Shown piece by piece: positions 8,346 to 26,802 of a stretch of 35,434 bases of DNA. How positions within the stretch are numbered: position 1 is the stretch's first letter; each line of letters starts with the position of its first letter. Below the pieces are notes generated by a model, which did not search any database, was not told the DNA's origin, and saw nothing but the letters and a program-made list of their open reading frames with translations. The stretch is from positions 1 through 35,434 of the forward strand of contig JAHHHT010000051.1 in NCBI GenBank assembly GCA_019359235.1, written 5' to 3'. Source of the DNA: Oscillatoria princeps RMCB-10 (GTDB lineage: Bacteria; Cyanobacteriota; Cyanobacteriia; Cyanobacteriales; Oscillatoriaceae). A program made the translations under genes and the position numbers.

Positions 8346-8444
8346 CCCCCGCCACACCGGCACCCCACAATAACCAACCGACTCTACGGCATCCGCCAAA
8401 TCTTGATGGTTTTGTCCCCACTGCCACTGACTAAAGTCTTGCCA

Positions 8445-8469
8445 ATCTCCTTCGGAGACGCTTCGCTAA
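8445..8469. repeat. Small dispersed repeat inserted in WD40 blade 7
   Basis: A 25-base block (ATCTCCTTCGGAGACG then CTTCGCTAA) replaces a single T of the blade consensus, a net gain of 24 bp that keeps the frame and adds eight residues (VSEASPKEI in place of D). It is related to short CTTCGGAGACGC-type repeats known from cyanobacterial genomes. Confidence 0.75.
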
Positions 8470-8720
8470 CGGGGCTGATTGCCACAGAAGTAACCCCGTC
8501 GGTATGCCCGGTGAGGGTATTTTGCAGCGTGCCGGTTTCCAGATTCCAAATCTTGATGGTATCGTCCCAACTGCCACTTACTAAAGTCTTGCCATCGGGG
8601 CTGATAGCGACAGACTTAACTCCGTCGGTATGCCCGGTAAGGGTATTTTGCAGCGTGCCGGTGTTCAGATTCCAAATTTTGATGGTATGGTCATCACTGC
8701 CACTGACTAAAGTCTTGCCA

Positions 8721-8745
8721 ATCTCCTTCGGAGACGCTTCGCTAA
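8721..8745. repeat. Small dispersed repeat inserted in WD40 blade 5
   Basis: The same 25-base block, at the same position of the blade, as at 8445-8469. Blades 1-4 and 6 lack it. Confidence 0.75.
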
Positions 8746-10588
8746 CGGGGCTGATAGCGACAGAACTAACCCCGCCGGTATGCCCGGTGAGGGTTTTTTG
8801 CAGGGTGCCGGTGTCGGGATTCCAAATCTTGATGGTATTGTCACCACTGCCACTGACTAAAGTCTTGCCATCGGGGCTGATTGCGACATCCCAAACCCAG
8901 TCGGTATGCCCGGTGAGGGTATTTTGCAGGGTGCCGGTGTCGGGATTCCAAATCTTGATGGTATTGTCACCACTGCCACTGACTAAAGTCTTGCCATCGG
9001 GGCTGATGGCGACATCTCAAACCCAGTCGTTATGCCCGGTGAGGGTATTTTGCAGGGTGCCGGTGTCCAGATTCCAAATCTTGATGGTAGCGTCACTACT
9101 GCCACTGACTAAAGTCTTGCCATCGGGGCTGATGGCGACAGACATAAACACCTCGGTATGCCCAGTGAGGGTTTTTTGCAGGGTGCCGGTGTCGAGATTC
9201 CAAATTTTGATGGTTTTGTCAACACTGCCACTGACTAAAGTCTTGCCATCGGGGCTGATGGCGACAGAAGTAACTCGGTAGGTATGCCCGGTGAGGGTTT
9301 TATTTAAAAAGAATGGGCTGTAAATCAGACCTATTGGATTTGACGGAAAGATTCCATAGCGAACTAGCACATAGATTTGAGATCCTGCCAATCCCAACAG
9401 CAGGATAGCACCGGCTGCCATCCAGGGATTTTTATGCAGCTGAGAAACTCTGGAAATCAGCCCTATTAAATTTAACGGAAAGGCACCGGCTGCCCCCCGG
9501 AGATTTACAGTCGGTTGAGAAACTACCTTAGGCGGCGATGGCGGTGGCGGCGGTGACGTCCGTTTTGGCTGTCGCGGCGGCGGTGGCGGCGGTGTCAGTT
9601 GCGGTTTGCGCTGCAAATCCCTCAGCACCTCAGCAGCAGATTGATAGCGCTGCAGTCGCTCTTTTTGCAACAGCTTATCCAGAACCCCCTGCAATTCCAG
9701 ACTCACAGATTGCCGCAAATGCTGCCGCCAATTACCCACCCACTCATAGCCCTTATTCAGAAACAGGTTATAGGGGTTAGCTTGAGTGAGCAACTGAAAG
9801 CAAGTCACGCCCAAACTAAATAAATCGCTCTCCGGATACGCCTCACCGGCATCCATTTGCTCAAACGGCGCATATCCCAGGGTGCCAATTTGCGTTCCCC
9901 TCACCGAGAGGGTTGCCGCTAACTGCTTCGATGCCCCGAAATCAATCAGCACGAATTGACTTTGCCCCCCTTTCCCTTGAGGGTAAAGAGGCGTCTGGTT
10001 CGGGTGCGCGGTGCGGCACATAATATTCGGCGGTTTGATATCTCGGTGAATGATATCGCGCTCGTGGATAAACTGCAACACCGGCAGCAATTGCAGCAAC
10101 AAATCTCTCACCTGACTCTCACTCCACACCCCCTGCTGCAACTTATCCAAAGTCTGCCCCTCAATAAACTGCTGCACGAGATACTTCCGTCTTGCTCAAA
10201 ATAAGCGTATAATGTAGGAATCTGCGGGTGTTCTCCCAGCTGTTGCAGCCGCCGTGCCTCTTGCTCAAATAACTCCGTTGCCTTCCGCAGGGCGGCGGTG
10301 CCTTGCGTTTTCGGCGCTAGCTGCTTGATGACGCAGCGCTCATTGAGTTTATCTATATCTTCTGCGAGATAGGTTCTGCCAAACCCCCCCTCATTTGAAA
10401 GCAGCTGGATGGGGCGATAGTGAGTTCTCAGCAGCACCAGTGGCGTGCGGCAATTCTGGCAGAATTTTGCCCCGTCGGGGTTGTGCGGATTCTGGCAGTC
10501 GGGGTTCAGGCAGCAGTGCATAATGAGGCATAAGGGCAGATGTTGCTTTTTATGATAAGTGATGAGTGGTAACGCCGGTACTGCCGGT

Positions 10589-10912
10589 GGGGCTAAAGCC
10601 CAACTGCGAACTTTTGGGCTGAAGCCCAATTACAAACTTTTGGGCTGAAGCCCAACTGCGAACTTTGGGCTAAAGCCCAACTGCGAACTTTGGGCTAAAG
10701 CCCAACTGCGAACTTTTGGGCTGAAGCCCAACTACAAACTCAGGACTTACGCAAAGTCTCTATCTGTAGGGTGGGTTAGCGCTAGCGTAACCCACCACGC
10801 ACCACATGAAGTGTCGCTGCGTAAGTCCTGAAACTTTTGGGCTAAAGCCCAACTACAAACAATTGGGCTAAAGCCCAACTACAAACTTTGGGCTGAAGCC
10901 CAACTACAAACG
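10589..10912. repeat. Array of GGGCTRAAGCCC palindromes
   Basis: Nine copies of a unit of about 25 bp made of TTTGGGCTRAAGCCCAA plus a spacer CTRCRAAC; six precede and three follow the MITE at 10740-10831. R is A or G, so the palindrome keeps either an A-T or a G-T centre. A single copy, GGGCTTTAGCCC, is also found near 35065. Confidence 0.85.
10740..10831. mobile_element. 92-bp MITE with perfect 14-bp ends and AAC target duplication
   Basis: TCAGGACTTACGCA at 10740-10753 and its exact reverse complement TGCGTAAGTCCTGA at 10818-10831 bound a 92-bp element. AAC flanks it on both sides (10737-10739 and 10832-10834), and removing the element plus one AAC restores the array unit. Inside lies a near-perfect palindrome around GGTGGGTTAGCGCTAGCG. 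It carries no gene; a transposase acting in trans is implied. Confidence 0.85.
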
Positions 10913-19247: not shown

Positions 19248-19501
19248 GGAGGTAGCGCCGGCTTATCGTAGCCGGTGCGGCGTCCCTTTTTTCTTGTTCC
19301 CATCTGGAACAAAGGAAGAAGAAAAATCACCCTTTAGGAAGAAGACACCGGTCACGCTTTTATTTAATCCCGTCAGGATGGGACTTCGGTAAGCTTTCCT
19401 GAGGGGGAAATCAGCCGGCTGGTGGGCAAAAGTGCCGGTCAGTCCCGGCGACGGGTGCGGCTGTACTATAAAACTTATGCCGGTTACATAGAGAAAGTGC
19501 A

Positions 19502-22204
19502 ATGAGCGAAAACCAGAATCCCGTTCCCCGCCTAGACTTGGCTCCCAAGCTAAAGCGCCGCCTCTTCAGGTGGAATCCGCTGGATTACCTGCGGTTGCTG
19601 TACTGGGTGTTTTTCTTTCCCCAGGCTTTGCGGTGGTATGTGGACACTTTCGGGGATGGGTATATTCCTGAAAAGGAAATGAATTTGCGAAAGGGATGGG
19701 AGCTGCTGCGACAGAATCGCACCGAGCGCAACTTGCTGTTGCAAGGGTTGGTTTTGACAGTTGTGACACCCCTCGCTGTGGGTGCATTTCTTGAGCATAT
19801 AGGCGTTCCTGTTGATTGGAGGGGCGTGGCGCTGGGTGTGGGGTTGGGCGTGGGGTTGGGCGTGGCGTCGGGGGTGGCGCTGGGCGTGGCGCTGGGCGTG
19901 GCGTCGGGGGTGGCGCTGGGCGTGGCGTCGGGCGTGGCGTCGGGGGTGGCGTCGGGCTTGGCGTCGGGCGTGACGCTGGACGTGATGTTGGACGTGATGT
20001 CGGGCGTGGCGTTCGGCGTGGCGTGGGGCGTGGGGTTGGGCGTGGCGCTGGGCGTGATGTCCGGGGTGGCGTCGGGCGTCACGTCGGGGGTGGCGTGGGA
20101 CGCTCTCTCGGACGCGATCTCGGAGGTGATGTCGGGCGTGGGGTTGGGCGTGGCGCTGGGGGTGGTGTCGGGCGTGGTGTCGGGCGTCGGGCTGGGCGTG
20201 GGGTTGGGCGTGGCGCTGAGCGTGGCGCTGTGCGTGGCGTCGAGCGTGGCGCTGGGCGTGGCGATCCTCCGTGTGGAAAATTGGCTGTTTTCTGTGTTGC
20301 TCACCCCACTGAAATTGGGGAATAAGCGCTTTCAGCTGTCTCACGTTACGCCACTTCCCCTTCCCTTTGTTTCGCGCCGGCTGGCAAAGTGGCTGCGGCG
20401 GGACTGGGAGGCGGGTTTGCACAACGTCAACCAAGTTTTAGCCTACACGCTTCAGTTTATCCCGGCTGTTAAGGCTGTGAATCTTGTGCTGGCGGAGACG
20501 CCGGCGGAGCAACTCATTTTTCGCGTCGCCCAGATGGCTGAAGACCCCTATGATTGGCAGTTGGTGCGTTTTGCCTCAGCTTATCAGCGCCCAATAATCG
20601 GGTTAAAGAATATAGAACTTCGCCCCGACACCCCAGCCCGCGCTGCAGCCGCCGGCTTCTGGTATCTGCACGCAAAGAATGCCCGGAAAGCCGCCGAAGC
20701 TTTTGCTGAAGTTAGCTCTCTGTTATATGGGGAGGAAATGCTCGCCATCGCTCAAACCCTGGAAGCTTTTGACACGGGTTCTGAACTCGCCGATATTGCT
20801 GCGGTGCGAGTGCCGGCTTTTCCCAAAGACGCCTCTCTCCGCCCAGCGACTTGGAAAGCGCTCGCCGGTCTGCGGCGAGTCGTGGAGGATATCCAAACTG
20901 TTGAGAAAAGTGTGTCTCCCTCTAACCGTTCGTTCGCTCTCAACCGAGCCTTGGGAGAACTGACCGGCATCCTTGACAAAACCGGCACTCTCCCAGAAGC
21001 TGAGCGAGATTTGATCGCATTCATTGCTAAAAATTGGCAAGAATCCCTGCTGGAGGTTGCTGCTGAGGTGGGGGCTGTTTCCATCGCCGAGCCGGTGCGC
21101 AATCCCTATGTTGTTGGCGACCCCGTTGAGGGGCAACTGCTTTTCGGGCGGGAAGACATAATGAGAAAGCTACAGGAAGTGTGGGGTGCCGGCAATCAGC
21201 TGCAATCTGTACTGATATTCGGACACCGGCGCACCGGCAAAACCTCTATCCTGCGCACCGCCAGCAACTCTCTCGGTTCAGGGATAACAGTCGCTTATGT
21301 CAACCTGCTGACGGTTGCCAATACCTCTCAGGGAGTTGCCGACGTGCTGATGGCGATTTGTGATGCCATTTCCAGTCAGGTACACTGCACGCCGCCAGAC
21401 GAGACAAAGTTGCTGACCTTTCCCTATCATACCTTTGAGCGCTACTTGAAACAAGTGGAGGCAAATCTGGAGGGAGGCTTAATTATCGCCCTAGACGAAT
21501 TCGAGTCAATCGAAAACCTGATAGAGGCGGGAAAACTCCCTCCCGGCTTTATGGGGTTTTTGCGGGGGATGATGCAAGTCAGTCCCAAGATAGCCTTTGC
21601 ATTCGCCGGCTCGCACACGTTGCAGGAGATGAAAGCGGATTACTTCCAGCCGTTTTTCTCCAGTGTCATCCCGATTCGGATTGGCTTCCTGACTCCAGCA
21701 ATTATCCGCCAAATCCTGGGGAACCCAGATCGTAACTTCCCCCTCGACTACACGCCGGAAGCGCTCGACCGGATTTATGCGCTGACTTCTGGACAGCCCT
21801 ATCTGGTTCAGCTGATTGGATTTCAGATGGTTCGCTGGTACAATGACGTGGTTTTTGAAATGGGACGCTCGCGGGAGCCGGTGTTTAGTGTCGATGATGT
21901 GGAAATGGAGATGGATGATGAAATTTTCAAGCGGGGGCGGTATTACTTCACCGGCGTTTGGGAGGACGCGGCGCGGGGCGCTGCCGGTCAGCAGGCAATT
22001 TTGCGGGCTCTCGCACCCCACCCGGAAGGGCTAACGCTTGCAGAGATTGCTAAGGCTGCCGGTGTGGGAAGTGAGGGCGCAACTGCAGCCCTCGATACGT
22101 TGGAGCGACATGACGTTGTTGCAAAAATCGACAGCCGGTGGCGGATTGTTGTGGAACTGTTTCGCCGGTGGGTTTTGAAAATGGAAGCCGGTGAACAAAA
22201 ATAA
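19502..22204 (+). CDS. STAND/AAA-type ATPase with a glycine-zipper membrane repeat
   Basis: A 900-residue protein, not a family I can name. Residues 1-80 are basic with an aromatic hydrophobic segment near 33-46; 81-97 is a hydrophobic helix; residues 107-254 are about 37 tetrads of G-V-x-[LS], so Gly recurs every fourth residue with almost no charge. A second soluble region (270-545) has helical repeats. The ATPase follows: GRE near 556, Walker A GHRRTGKT (574-581), Walker B ending D665-E666 (IIALDEFES), sensor-like FAFAGSHTL, then a C-terminal winged-helix (about 825-895, [20 protein letters not shown]). ATG 19502 follows AGAGAAAG. Genes of this shape are STAND-like switches; a pore or membrane-sensing role for the repeat is inference. 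Confidence 0.88.
19820..20262. repeat. Coding 12-bp tandem repeat (GGCGTGGCGCTG-type)
   Basis: About 37 imperfect 12-bp units encoding [12 protein letters not shown] and variants. Third-position and second-half changes (GCG to TTG, TCG, ATG) vary residue 3-4 while the GGCGTG (Gly-Val) half is kept. The run leaves all six frames nearly free of stops, which explains long shadow frames there. Confidence 0.9.
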
Positions 22205-23930: not shown

Positions 23931-26486
23931 CTACACCGGCGTGAAATCCGCACCCGTCACGAGAGCCGGCTGCACCCCCACCACAGTCGCCAGCAGCTCG
24001 CTGGTACTGGTGACAGTGACAGTCGCGCCCTCGGCATTTCCGGCAATCAGCAAATCCTCGAATACCAAACCGCCGGCTAATCCCAGAAAATCTATTCCAT
24101 CTTCAAAATTGAGGATTATATCAGCATTGCTGCCTTCTGTCAAGACAAGGGTGTCGCTGCCGGTGCCGCCGTTGAGGGTGTCGGTGCCCAAACCGCCGCT
24201 GAGGAGATCCGCACCGCCGCCGCCGGTGAGGGTGTCGCTGCCGGTGCCACCGTAGAGCTTGTCATCCCCAGCATCTCCGCTCAGGGTATTCTTCCCCTGA
24301 CTGCCGTAAAGAATGTCATTCCCACTCCCGCCGCAGAGTTCTTCTCCGCTTTGCGGACTTTCCCCGCTGCTGGCGCTGCTATTGCCGGCAAAAAGGGTGT
24401 CCTCGCCCTCGCCACCGCAGAGAGTGTCCCTGCCTAGCTGGCCAAATAGCAGGTCGTTGCCGGCATCCCCATAGAGCAAGTCATTCTCTTGCCCGCCGAC
24501 TGCAGTATCATTGCCCTCACCGGCAGAAATCGTGTCATTGTTCTCATTGCCATTGAGCAAGTCATCACCGGCATCCCCGAACAGCAAATCCAACCCGTCC
24601 GGATCGCCAAAGTTCGGATCGCTAACTCCGCCGAGAACAGTATCGTTACCGGCACCGCCCATCAGAGTGTCATTCCCGCGATCTCCAAATATCAAGTCAT
24701 CCCCTGTGCCGCCACCGGCAATATCATCCTCTTTACCGGCAAACAGCGTGTCAAACCCATCCTCGCCGAACAGCAGATCGTCACCCCAGTTGCCAAACAG
24801 CAAGTCATCCTCTGGGGGGCTGTCCGAGGGGGCGTTGGTGGCAGAACCCCCATACATCGTGTCGTTACCGAGATCGCCAAACAGGGTGTCATCATCCAAA
24901 TCTCCGAATATCCAATCACTGTCTTTCCCCCCACTGGCCACATCGTCGCCCAAACCCCCTTTGACCGTATCATTGCCCTGATTGCCGCCCAGGTAATCAT
25001 TGCCCTCGTTGCCCTCAATCCAGTCTCGATCGTCCTGCGCGCCTGCCGAGTTTTTGCTGCCGGTGCCCCCCAAAACCGTGTCACTCCCCGCACCCCCAAA
25101 AATGTTGTGGTTGCCGGTTTTCCCGAAAACAAAGTCATTGCCACTTCCCGCCTGAATGCCTTGATTGCCATTGCTGCCCACCAGAATGTCATCTCCAGAA
25201 GTGCCGTTTTGCGTGCTGGCGACTTCTGGGGGTTCTGCTGCGGCGGCGGCGTCGAATGTCACCTGTGGCGCTTCTGGAACCGGCGGGCATTCGCAATCGA
25301 TATCCTCAGCTATCGCCGACGCCGGCGTGGGGGTAGGCGTGGGAGTTCCTGTCGGCGGTGTGAGAGTCTCTGTCGGCGGTGTGAGAGTATCCGCTGGTGC
25401 GGGAGTTGGCGCGGGTGCCGGAGTTGGCGCGGGTGTGGGAGTTGGCGCGGGTGTGGGAGTTGGCGCGGGTGTGGCAGTGTCGTTGTCGGCGATACTGGCA
25501 GTGATGGGGGTAATGGCAATGCCGGTGTAATTCGCATCCGAGCTCGTTGCGCTAAAGCTAATCGCACTCGTGTGGTTCCCCTCAACCGCCGCATCATCCG
25601 AAGCCGTTACCGTCACCGTTTGGGGTGTGTTCCAGTTTTCTGGAGTGAAAGTCAGCGCCGTTAAATTGCTGCCAGACTGCGCGTCAGGAGTGATGCTGAC
25701 AGTCACATTAGCAGCCGGCTGGCTGGCGATCACCACATCATAGGTATCCGTCGCGCCCCCTTCGGCGATCGCAGTGCTGCCACCCGACTGGGTAATAGTA
25801 ACGCCAAATAAGGGCTGCGTTGCTAGAGAGCCACTTTTCAGGAACACCGCAGAGTCATAACTGCTGTCACCCACATCCTGAATCTTAATGCTCAGAGTGT
25901 TCTGGGCATTCTTGATCACCGCCCCCTCAAAAGTTAGGGTTTTGGTGTAGCCATCTAGCTTCGTTTCAACCTTAGGATCTTCAGGAGGGTTGTTGATGTA
26001 GTCCGGATGAAAAGAGGCTGGGTCGTTCTTGTTAGGGACAAGATCGTTAATCGTGACCGTCTTACCGTCGCTCAGCTTCGCCAGGTTTTCGCCATTCAGC
26101 AGCAGTTCAAAAGAGTCATTAAATTCCTGCCCGGCAAACTCTAGAAATTCATCAGAGCCAAACACATAGGTAAAGAATAGGTTCTCTACTGTGTTGCCAG
26201 CGTCAAAGGTGATATCCAGACTGATTGAGTCAGTTTCATCGCCAAATCCACCAGAAAGAGAAGTGCTTAAATCTCCGTCGTCCTGGTTCTGTCCCGGTAT
26301 TTCTGCTGCATTGCCGGTACTCAGAACGATGCCAGACCCCAAGTCAAAAGGATCGTCCTGGAAAATCCCAAAGGCAGCTGGGTCGCCGGTCGTGGCAATC
26401 GAGAAATTGCTCAGCCCAGCTGCGTTCCCCAGCAAGGTGTTGAGCAACTCAGAAGTATTATTGTTTTGAGTGATAGAAAACGCCAT
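23931..26486 (-). CDS. Secreted RTX calcium-binding repeat protein with choice-of-anchor L domain
   Basis: An 851-residue adhesin-like protein. ATG 26486 (MAFSITQNNN) follows an AGAGAC purine run; no Sec signal, so type I secretion by a C-terminal signal is likely. Residues 10-205 match the choice-of-anchor L domain (FGSDEFLEFAGQEFNDSFELLLNG, DVGDSSYDSAVFL). Residues 210-330 are a beta-sandwich (TYDVVIASQPAANVTVSI, PENWNTPQTVTVTASDD). Residues 335-389 form a Pro/Thr/Ala linker with PTPAPTPA repeats. Residues 432-790 hold about 30 RTX nonapeptides (GNDTLMGG, GDDLLFGD and kin). No transporter or membrane fusion gene lies nearby. Expected to be extracellular and calcium-folded. Confidence 0.88.
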   Translation of the reverse strand: MAFSITQNNNTSELLNTLLGNAAGLSNFSIATTGDPAAFGIFQDDPFDLGSGIVLSTGNAAEIPGQNQDDGDLSTSLSGGFGDETDSISLDITFDAGNTVENLFFTYVFGSDEFLEFAGQEFNDSFELLLNGENLAKLSDGKTVTINDLVPNKNDPASFHPDYINNPPEDPKVETKLDGYTKTLTFEGAVIKNAQNTLSIKIQDVGDSSYDSAVFLKSGSLATQPLFGVTITQSGGSTAIAEGGATDTYDVVIASQPAANVTVSITPDAQSGSNLTALTFTPENWNTPQTVTVTASDDAAVEGNHTSAISFSATSSDANYTGIAITPITASIADNDTATPAPTPTPAPTPTPAPTPAPAPTPAPADTLTPPTETLTPPTGTPTPTPTPASAIAEDIDCECPPVPEAPQVTFDAAAAAEPPEVASTQNGTSGDDILVGSNGNQGIQAGSGNDFVFGKTGNHNIFGGAGSDTVLGGTGSKNSAGAQDDRDWIEGNEGNDYLGGNQGNDTVKGGLGDDVASGGKDSDWIFGDLDDDTLFGDLGNDTMYGGSATNAPSDSPPEDDLLFGNWGDDLLFGEDGFDTLFAGKEDDIAGGGTGDDLIFGDRGNDTLMGGAGNDTVLGGVSDPNFGDPDGLDLLFGDAGDDLLNGNENNDTISAGEGNDTAVGGQENDLLYGDAGNDLLFGQLGRDTLCGGEGEDTLFAGNSSASSGESPQSGEELCGGSGNDILYGSQGKNTLSGDAGDDKLYGGTGSDTLTGGGGADLLSGGLGTDTLNGGTGSDTLVLTEGSNADIILNFEDGIDFLGLAGGLVFEDLLIAGNAEGATVTVTSTSELLATVVGVQPALVTGADFTPV

Positions 26487-26802
26487 GACTGATGTCTCTT
26501 TGTGATAAGTTAATAAAAAGGGGAACCGCCCGCGCCAACCCCCCAACAGCCCCAACCCCAAGCCGCCTCCCTGTTTCTGAGAGCCTGACGGCTGTCGGGC
26601 GAGGGAATAGGGCGGTGGGGTGATGGCTCGCCGGCGTGCCGGTGAGGTAAGATAAGCAATTAAAACCCCACGCTAGCATCCTCTCCCTTTGAGGGAGCCG
26701 AAATCTTGATTCTCCCGGCTCAGCTCAATAACCCGGGTTGCCTTTGATGATATTGCAATCGCAGACCGTCGTCTCCCCAGTTCTGTTTTGGGGGCGCGTC
26801 CC

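Follow-up and report, generated by a model that had tools for sequence, protein, structure and literature searches.

The gene at positions 19502..22204 of the window, the 35,434-nucleotide stretch of DNA analysed here, which is the whole of contig C5 of an 8.5-Mb genome, was found to be an orphan duplicate from a family whose members typically lie directly downstream of a second STAND-type ATPase gene. The pairing with this partner is the main new result and falls outside the original observation on this DNA. On balance, we lean towards reading the gene as the membrane-anchored, constant half of a cyanobacterial two-gene STAND/STAND switch of the conflict type, acting in immunity or programmed cell death. 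The parts of the gene and the relic in front of it are as follows.

19317..19502, + strand: relic of the upstream partner STAND gene, its C-terminal 62 residues, with two stop codons (translated homology)
19502..22204, + strand: putative membrane STAND-like ATPase gene, 900 aa, single intact ORF, with a 94%-identical copy in Oscillatoria sp. PCC 10802
19502..19813, + strand: N-terminal conserved domain, aa 1-104 (profile matches), with a hydrophobic segment at aa 78-96
19823..20263, + strand: 37-tetrad G-V-x-x tract, aa 108-254 (repeat and hydropathy analysis), predicted to lie in the membrane
20264..21088, + strand: conserved linker region, aa 255-529 (sequence conservation)
21089..21994, + strand: STAND-like NTPase core, aa 530 onward, with FGREDI near its start (motifs and profile matches)
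21221-21247, + strand: Walker A, GHRRTGKTS, aa 574-582 (translation)
21482-21505, + strand: Walker B, IIALDEFE, aa 661-668 (translation)
21791-21799, + strand: GQP motif, aa 764-766, within the NTPase core
21995..22123, + strand: winged-helix-type domain, aa 832-874, after the NTPase (HTH_IclR, 23.7 bits, cutoff 22)

Neither the linker nor the N-terminal domain of the window protein matched a Pfam family at E<=1. A Pfam identity for the N-terminal domain was also sought among 16 rows, which returned seven single-row matches, the best at E 0.01, and these were set aside as noise. Three overlapping ORFs (19550-20434 and 19585-20304 on the - strand, 19816-20325 on the + strand) cover the 12-bp repeat and were read as spurious. 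Since the flanking homology places the coding frame there, the real frame over the repeat is the one on the + strand.

When the neighbours at 24 loci were clustered, one companion was common to 23 of them, that is, to all but the window. A profile search then placed this partner directly upstream and on the same strand in 62 of the 69 members (of 70) having at least 1.3 kb of upstream DNA, a share that is not a population frequency, since the members were taken from homology hits and are no random sample. The gap was within 200 bp in 43 of the 62 pairs and was zero or an overlap in 17; downstream or on the opposite strand, the same search found no partner within 1.3 kb in any of the 70. The seven members lacking a partner were the window gene, its PCC 10802 ortholog, L066, L162, L167, L168 and one L175 copy, the last of which follows a paired copy without an ATPase.

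The partner is a small STAND-type ATPase. The nSTAND1 cutoff was passed by five of the seven partners scanned whole (those of L059 and of the divergent pair on contig C33, L010, fell below it), and a Walker A pattern was present in all 62. By similarity, the N-termini of the 62 partners fell into 17 of an HTH-like type A, 13 of type B, five trypsins, four of type C, four LuxR/sigma-HTH-like, two of type E and 17 single cases; the 12 partners with an N-terminal extension shorter than 60 aa were all among the single cases. Pfam identified Trypsin_2 in the partners of L059 and L174, TIR_2 in those of L175, L176 and L177 (the L175 gene beside it being an ATPase-less copy), CHAT in that of L142 (1/62), EAD4 at 1.4e-36 in that of L065, the LuxR-type HTH domain GerE in that of L180, and Sigma70_r4_2 in that of L153. 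The HTH matches of type A stayed under the Pfam cutoffs, and no Pfam family could be assigned convincingly to types B, C and E in the rows scanned. His-Asp-Ser motifs were recognized by pattern in four of the five trypsin partners, the Ser pattern failing in L174. On a quick tree of the ATPase domains, the partner type changed at least 20 times, and well supported sisters carried unlike types, such as trypsin in L174 and TIR in L177, type B in L058 and CHAT in L142, and the pair L156 and L170.

Since the exchangeable effector or adaptor is carried by the partner, the membrane ATPase may best be read as a constant anchor and sensor, of which the tract would be the fast-changing membrane part. 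The initial annotation had proposed the repeat as the effector; the proposal was not supported in that form, as the Pfam effector and adaptor domains sit on the upstream partner of the relatives, which is a relic here.

The state of the window locus was clarified by comparison with PCC 10802. The relic of the partner directly precedes the window gene, and the ortholog in PCC 10802 is preceded by a remnant that shares one stop with it. Downstream of the PCC 10802 ortholog lie an intact partner and, behind it, a second copy whose tract is shorter (56 aa vs 152); this partner begins 1303 bp after the ortholog, just outside the 1.3-kb limit. A search of the window's own genome with that partner brought up no more than the relic and, on contig C38, a 1179-aa frame that matched weakly at 29%. 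A divergent intact pair with a gap of 17 bp is present on contig C33 (L010). Beside this pair there is a paralogue of 494 aa consisting of the N-terminal half only, and two more large adjacent ORFs appear by eye to be kinases with a formylglycine-enzyme-like C-terminus. Because the whole-gene dN/dS against PCC 10802 is well below 1, the orphan is probably still in use.

As judged from its motifs and profile matches, the ATPase is STAND-like, in agreement with the initial annotation, and the Walker A and B motifs reported there were intact. The Walker A pattern was kept in 61 and the DEFE pattern in 58 of the 62 paired membrane proteins, and GxRRxGKxS and DEFE were invariant in 14/14 aligned rows. 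STAND proteins carry an hhGRExE-type motif ahead of Walker A and a GxP-type motif after the NTPase core. The LLFGREDI of the window protein fits hhGRE but not the last E of GRExE, and GR was found in 12/14 rows, with KP in L010 and L083. The GxP-type motif reads GQP in the window protein; its Pro was invariant in 14/14 rows, its Gly was not, and a looser pattern was recognized in 55 of the 62. The C-terminal winged helix, also anticipated, was recovered over its cutoff as the HTH_IclR match, at the level of a sequence-profile comparison.

In Pfam, AAA_16 (29.8, cutoff 32.6) and ATPase_2 (26.5, cutoff 33.2) both stayed under the gathering score. When a profile was compared with solved structures, the archaeal-type ATPases 2fna (E 2.4e-4) and 2qen (E 1.2e-3) were matched over a long stretch; Midasin chains scored better (2.6e-5) but over only about 64 positions. 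A single-sequence search of the PDB with the window protein gave nothing at E<=0.1. 2fna and 2qen are thus the closest STAND-like structures that the profile matched at length; however, their chains count 350-357 residues and so have no comparable membrane part.

The tract was delimited by Tandem Repeats Finder (TRF) as a 12-bp period in 36.8 copies at 19822-20263. In register, it comprises 36 full tetrads followed by GVA, so that the roughly 37-fold G-V-x-[LS] repeat described initially was recovered, with its start at aa 108 in place of 107. Gly stands first in 29 of the 37 tetrads, so that a glycine at every fourth residue, as had been claimed, holds for about four in five tetrads and not for the remainder, which begin with D (four), S (two), E (one) and C (one). 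Val is second in 34 of the 37, and the fourth position is L or S in 33 of the 36 full tetrads (F once, W twice). The identity at lag 4 was 0.65, whereas 2000 shuffles of the residues averaged 0.17 and never exceeded 0.29, and the tetrad periodicity is thus far from chance.

The tract has the spacing of a glycine zipper, with 27 GxxxG, and hydropathy suggests helices in the membrane. Five segments reached KD >= 1.6, one of them ahead of the repeat, and the sequence N-terminal to the tract carried a net positive charge in 40/40 members. Moreover, in all 70 members the membrane slot holds a 19-mer whose insertion energy is low (sum <=1.9). The tract is probably membrane-embedded, and its hydropathy is compatible with several membrane passes, where the initial annotation proposed six or seven.

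The length of the tract is hypervariable among relatives, ranging from 56 to 223 aa in the 40 members compared. This comparison was made between species, with one genome per species, and used 40 of 49 rows, four of which are ATPase-less copies (L072, L073, L075, L076). The rows left out were L009 and L085, both fragments of the window gene, and L065, L066, L069, L084, L094, L096 and L097, in which inserts are long, repeats weak or missing, or matches incomplete. Tract lengths were congruent with that of the window modulo 4 in 27 of 39 relatives (binomial p 8e-9, with no correction for phylogeny); this agreement arises because the mutational unit is 12 bp and by itself lends no support to helices. 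The predicted expansion and contraction of the repeat was thereby borne out between species, as changes of whole units.

In one genus, flanks about 90-95% identical, with a dS of 0.02-0.09, enclose tracts of 112-220 aa; the longest belong to the four ATPase-less copies, and the measured tracts of the full-length copies were 112, 114 and 145. The closest pair, L073 and L075, both without the ATPase, differed by 88 residues in the tract with flanks 95% identical. Between full-length copies, the difference was 31 residues for L064 vs L059 (94% identity) and 35 residues for L045 vs L046 (87% identity); L062 and L050 (91% identity) had tracts of unchanged length.

The tetrads themselves can also be lost. 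Among the 70 members with both the N-terminal domain and the ATPase (the window included), tetrads were clear in 43, weak in nine and absent in 18, by classes set with thresholds and counted without a repeat filter. The initial annotation had regarded homologues without the repeat as evidence against it, and such homologues exist in part: 27 of the 70 keep the N-terminal domain and the ATPase with weak or no tetrads, and each has other sequence in the slot that includes at least one hydrophobic stretch. A WD40 insert occupies the slot in L066 (Pfam) and, by eye, in L065. The slot of L083:4227-7127 appears by eye to hold a different hydrophobic tandem repeat of about 90 aa and no tetrads. L058, whose C-terminal part is 62% identical, carries tetrads in which Ala replaces Gly (FAVQ/FAVV). 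On the quick tree of 63 ATPase domains, the tetrad state changed at least 17 times.

The window gene and its PCC 10802 ortholog have tracts of equal length that differ at five amino acids (four V to L/M, one S to K), with no change of Gly. The dN/dS of the tract in this pair was 0.098 (bootstrap 0.02-0.23) vs 0.313 (0.21-0.44) elsewhere in the gene, the two intervals barely overlapping, and the tract is thus under purifying selection in the single ortholog pair compared.

The main rival explanation is that the tract is itself the effector, the ATPase, once activated, assembling a pore or a membrane-disrupting bundle by which the cell would be depolarised. We regard it as possible but doubtful. 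The tract stands in the N-terminal position at which STAND proteins carry effectors, and its purifying selection in the one ortholog pair would fit. A precedent exists in the glycine-zipper toxins TelE, EsxX and CdzC/D (PMC10434224, PMC12744356, PMC5380434), which likewise have a hydrophobic segment with GxxxG spacing; for TelE, the glycine-zipper motif is described as required for membrane damage (PMC10434224), and the literature classes EsxX and CdzC/D as toxins of the glycine-zipper kind (PMC12744356, PMC5380434). Nevertheless, these are secreted or surface toxins, and a fused ATPase goes unmentioned in the excerpts of their descriptions considered here. A pore is further opposed by the effector domains on the partner in relatives and by the range of tract lengths among the 40 members together with the tetrads weak or absent in 27 of the 70, which are hard to reconcile with a fixed pore.

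Tract-bearing ORFs without an ATPase also exist and speak against the pore, although their flank dN/dS does not show function. These four copies (L072, L073, L075, L076) are uninterrupted ORFs from one genus that contain the membrane half only and end near the same residue. The flank dN/dS was 0.47-1.24 when these copies were compared with one another and 0.40-0.95 between full-length copies from that genus. An argument that took them as selected, and hence as evidence against a pore, was dropped because the flank dN/dS does not show selection.

The distribution and neighbourhood of the family were surveyed as well. A match at E<=0.001 was obtained in 150/291 sampled genomes of the order and in 104/291 of the class, two samples that overlap, many of the matches being to the ATPase or the repeat alone. 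A separate profile of the N-terminal domain matched in 41/386 sampled genomes of the phylum, all 41 within the window's class. Outside the phylum, the searches covered phages, plasmids, viral contigs and one pattern scan of genome contigs; that scan returned one relative, PCC 10802. A phage or viral origin was rejected, as there was no match in phages and no relative was confirmed in viral contigs. The sole plasmid hit was an Acinetobacter protein annotated as an N-6 DNA methylase (L044:5337-9308), whose C-terminal part is 24% identical to aa 522-895; it was discarded as a true relative and regarded as a distant ATPase match. Short frames elsewhere in cyanobacterial genomes (for example in G344, G035 and G128 C362) matched the tetrads alone and could be frames running over other 12-bp repeats.

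The initial annotation had asked whether neighbours in other genomes are defence genes. This was not the pattern found: six of ten recurrent neighbours scored over a curated cutoff and all six are ordinary cellular genes (lepA, nucleotide sugar dehydrogenase, polyphosphate kinase, isocitrate dehydrogenase, panC-cmk and PBP4), and the other four, below every cutoff, were sugar dehydratase-like, ABC transporter-like, Ser/Thr kinase-like and histidine kinase-like. The loci are syntenic within groups, and the neighbourhood is unlike a typical mobile defence island. PADLOC gave no dedicated match for the window protein, its best hit being 2.9e-5 over the ATPase. Among ten partners and paralogues, it gave no dedicated match, the only strong hits being those of the trypsin part of L059 to the LmuA and RT-protease models.

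Some further features of the window were recorded. A protein kinase-WD40 gene on the - strand at 8396-10629 is apparently split: the kinase match in the ORF at 9020-10177 starts at profile position 79, a second ORF occupies 10108-10629, and repeats with the 126-bp length of a WD40 unit run on to 8396, past the end of the former ORF. An 876-aa ORF at 23934-26561 on the - strand has 11 RTX calcium-binding repeat stretches. About three near-identical tandem units of 85 bp occupy positions 1-273, at the contig end.

The ordinary character of six of the ten neighbours and the stability of the loci within groups would suit a regulator of membrane stress or homeostasis without an immune role, in which transcription would be altered by an HTH partner in response to what the membrane protein senses in the bilayer. 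HTH-like partners are indeed the commonest class (17/62 of type A, with four more LuxR/sigma-HTH-like). However, the type A matches lie under the Pfam cutoffs, and the TIR, CHAT, EAD4 and trypsin domains found in the same slot are parts of predicted conflict systems; we consider such a regulator unlikely.

It may also be supposed that the tract is a soluble segment, beta-rich, amyloid-like or disordered, that forms no membrane helices. Gly/Val tetrads can also yield a strand that has small residues on one face and large ones on the other, and neither Gly nor Val readily forms helices in water. Furthermore, the best 19-mers of the tract summed to -0.1 to +2.4 on the Hessa scale, which is only marginally hydrophobic. 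Nevertheless, the tract has few charged residues (7 in 152), a hydrophobic segment precedes it, and L083 and L156 place, by eye, plainly hydrophobic non-repetitive sequence at the same position, so that a soluble tract seems improbable. A further reading, in which the tract arose neutrally through 12-bp slippage and persists as tolerated filler separating two conserved domains, would agree with the fast turnover of its length and sequence and with the absence of tetrads in some members, but is very improbable given the unchanged glycines and four of five changes from V to L/M in the ortholog pair, the tract dN/dS below that of the rest of the gene with intervals barely overlapping, and the hydrophobic stretch retained where tetrads are lost.

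The two-gene switch was also compared with described systems. The conflict systems of Kaur et al. join a constant core to exchangeable effectors or EADs (PMC7159879 and the excerpted description in PMC8195603). The two-gene membrane conflict system EACC1 (Kaur et al. 2020, PMC7159879) is alike in having two genes, a membrane element rich in small and Gly residues proposed as the sensor, and a second gene with exchangeable effector domains. However, EACC1 has one conserved TM helix in a small domain, whereas a long tandem repeat is fused to a STAND ATPase here; the constant part of its partner is a caspase in place of a STAND ATPase; and it is described as prevalent in actinobacteria, the present pair being found in cyanobacteria. 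The present family departs from EACC1 by its several hydrophobic segments, ATPase fusion and STAND partner, and CHAT occurs in one of the 62 partners.

The predicted STAND/EAD conflict systems described in 2021 (PMC8195603) resemble the pair in their STAND core with an exchangeable N-terminal EAD, TIR, caspase or trypsin, but no glycine-tetrad membrane domain appears in the excerpts of that description. Their pattern of exchange was seen in the partner, where TIR, CHAT, trypsin, EAD4 and HTH occupy one slot that changed content at least 20 times on the tree. The nSTAND2 two-gene operon is similar in its adjacent genes, STAND cores on both and exchangeable domains, but is described, in the same excerpts, around GT4 glycosyltransferase fusions (PMC8195603). 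No profile named nSTAND2 was among the matches of the window protein and the scanned partners, in a library that may lack one. Among the matches listed from the open-licence PMC literature, no title or abstract start described the tract or the pair.

In the two-gene STAND/STAND switch that we favour, the tetrads, with a small residue at every fourth position, would pack as transmembrane helices, and these helices would hold the protein in the membrane, bring its copies together and signal when the membrane is disturbed. The protein would then oligomerise in an ATP-dependent manner and engage the STAND domain of the partner, and the partner's effector would be released. Points that weigh against the switch are the ordinary neighbours and syntenic loci, the absence of a dedicated PADLOC match and the 12 partners with short N-terminal extensions. 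Since the window locus has no intact partner, the pair mechanism cannot operate there as described; the window copy may work by itself, have a different partner or control the intact divergent pair on contig C33. More tentatively, we speculated that the tract is a fast-evolving membrane recognition module of a switch resembling paired NLRs, whose 12-bp units would be gained and lost as in a contingency locus, giving close relatives unlike membrane bundles, while the effector is swapped too.

As a natural experiment of an unusual sort, a long and nearly pure GVxx tract bears on how few sequence rules suffice for a membrane bundle. The module is compact, with an effector slot and a membrane slot both evolving fast around constant ATPases. 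If the module is immune, it would be a bacterial counterpart of paired sensor/helper NLRs with the sensor embedded in the membrane, and, should the tract be a recognition module, tandem-repeat slippage acting on a membrane sensor would be a novel source of diversity for bacterial immune receptors.
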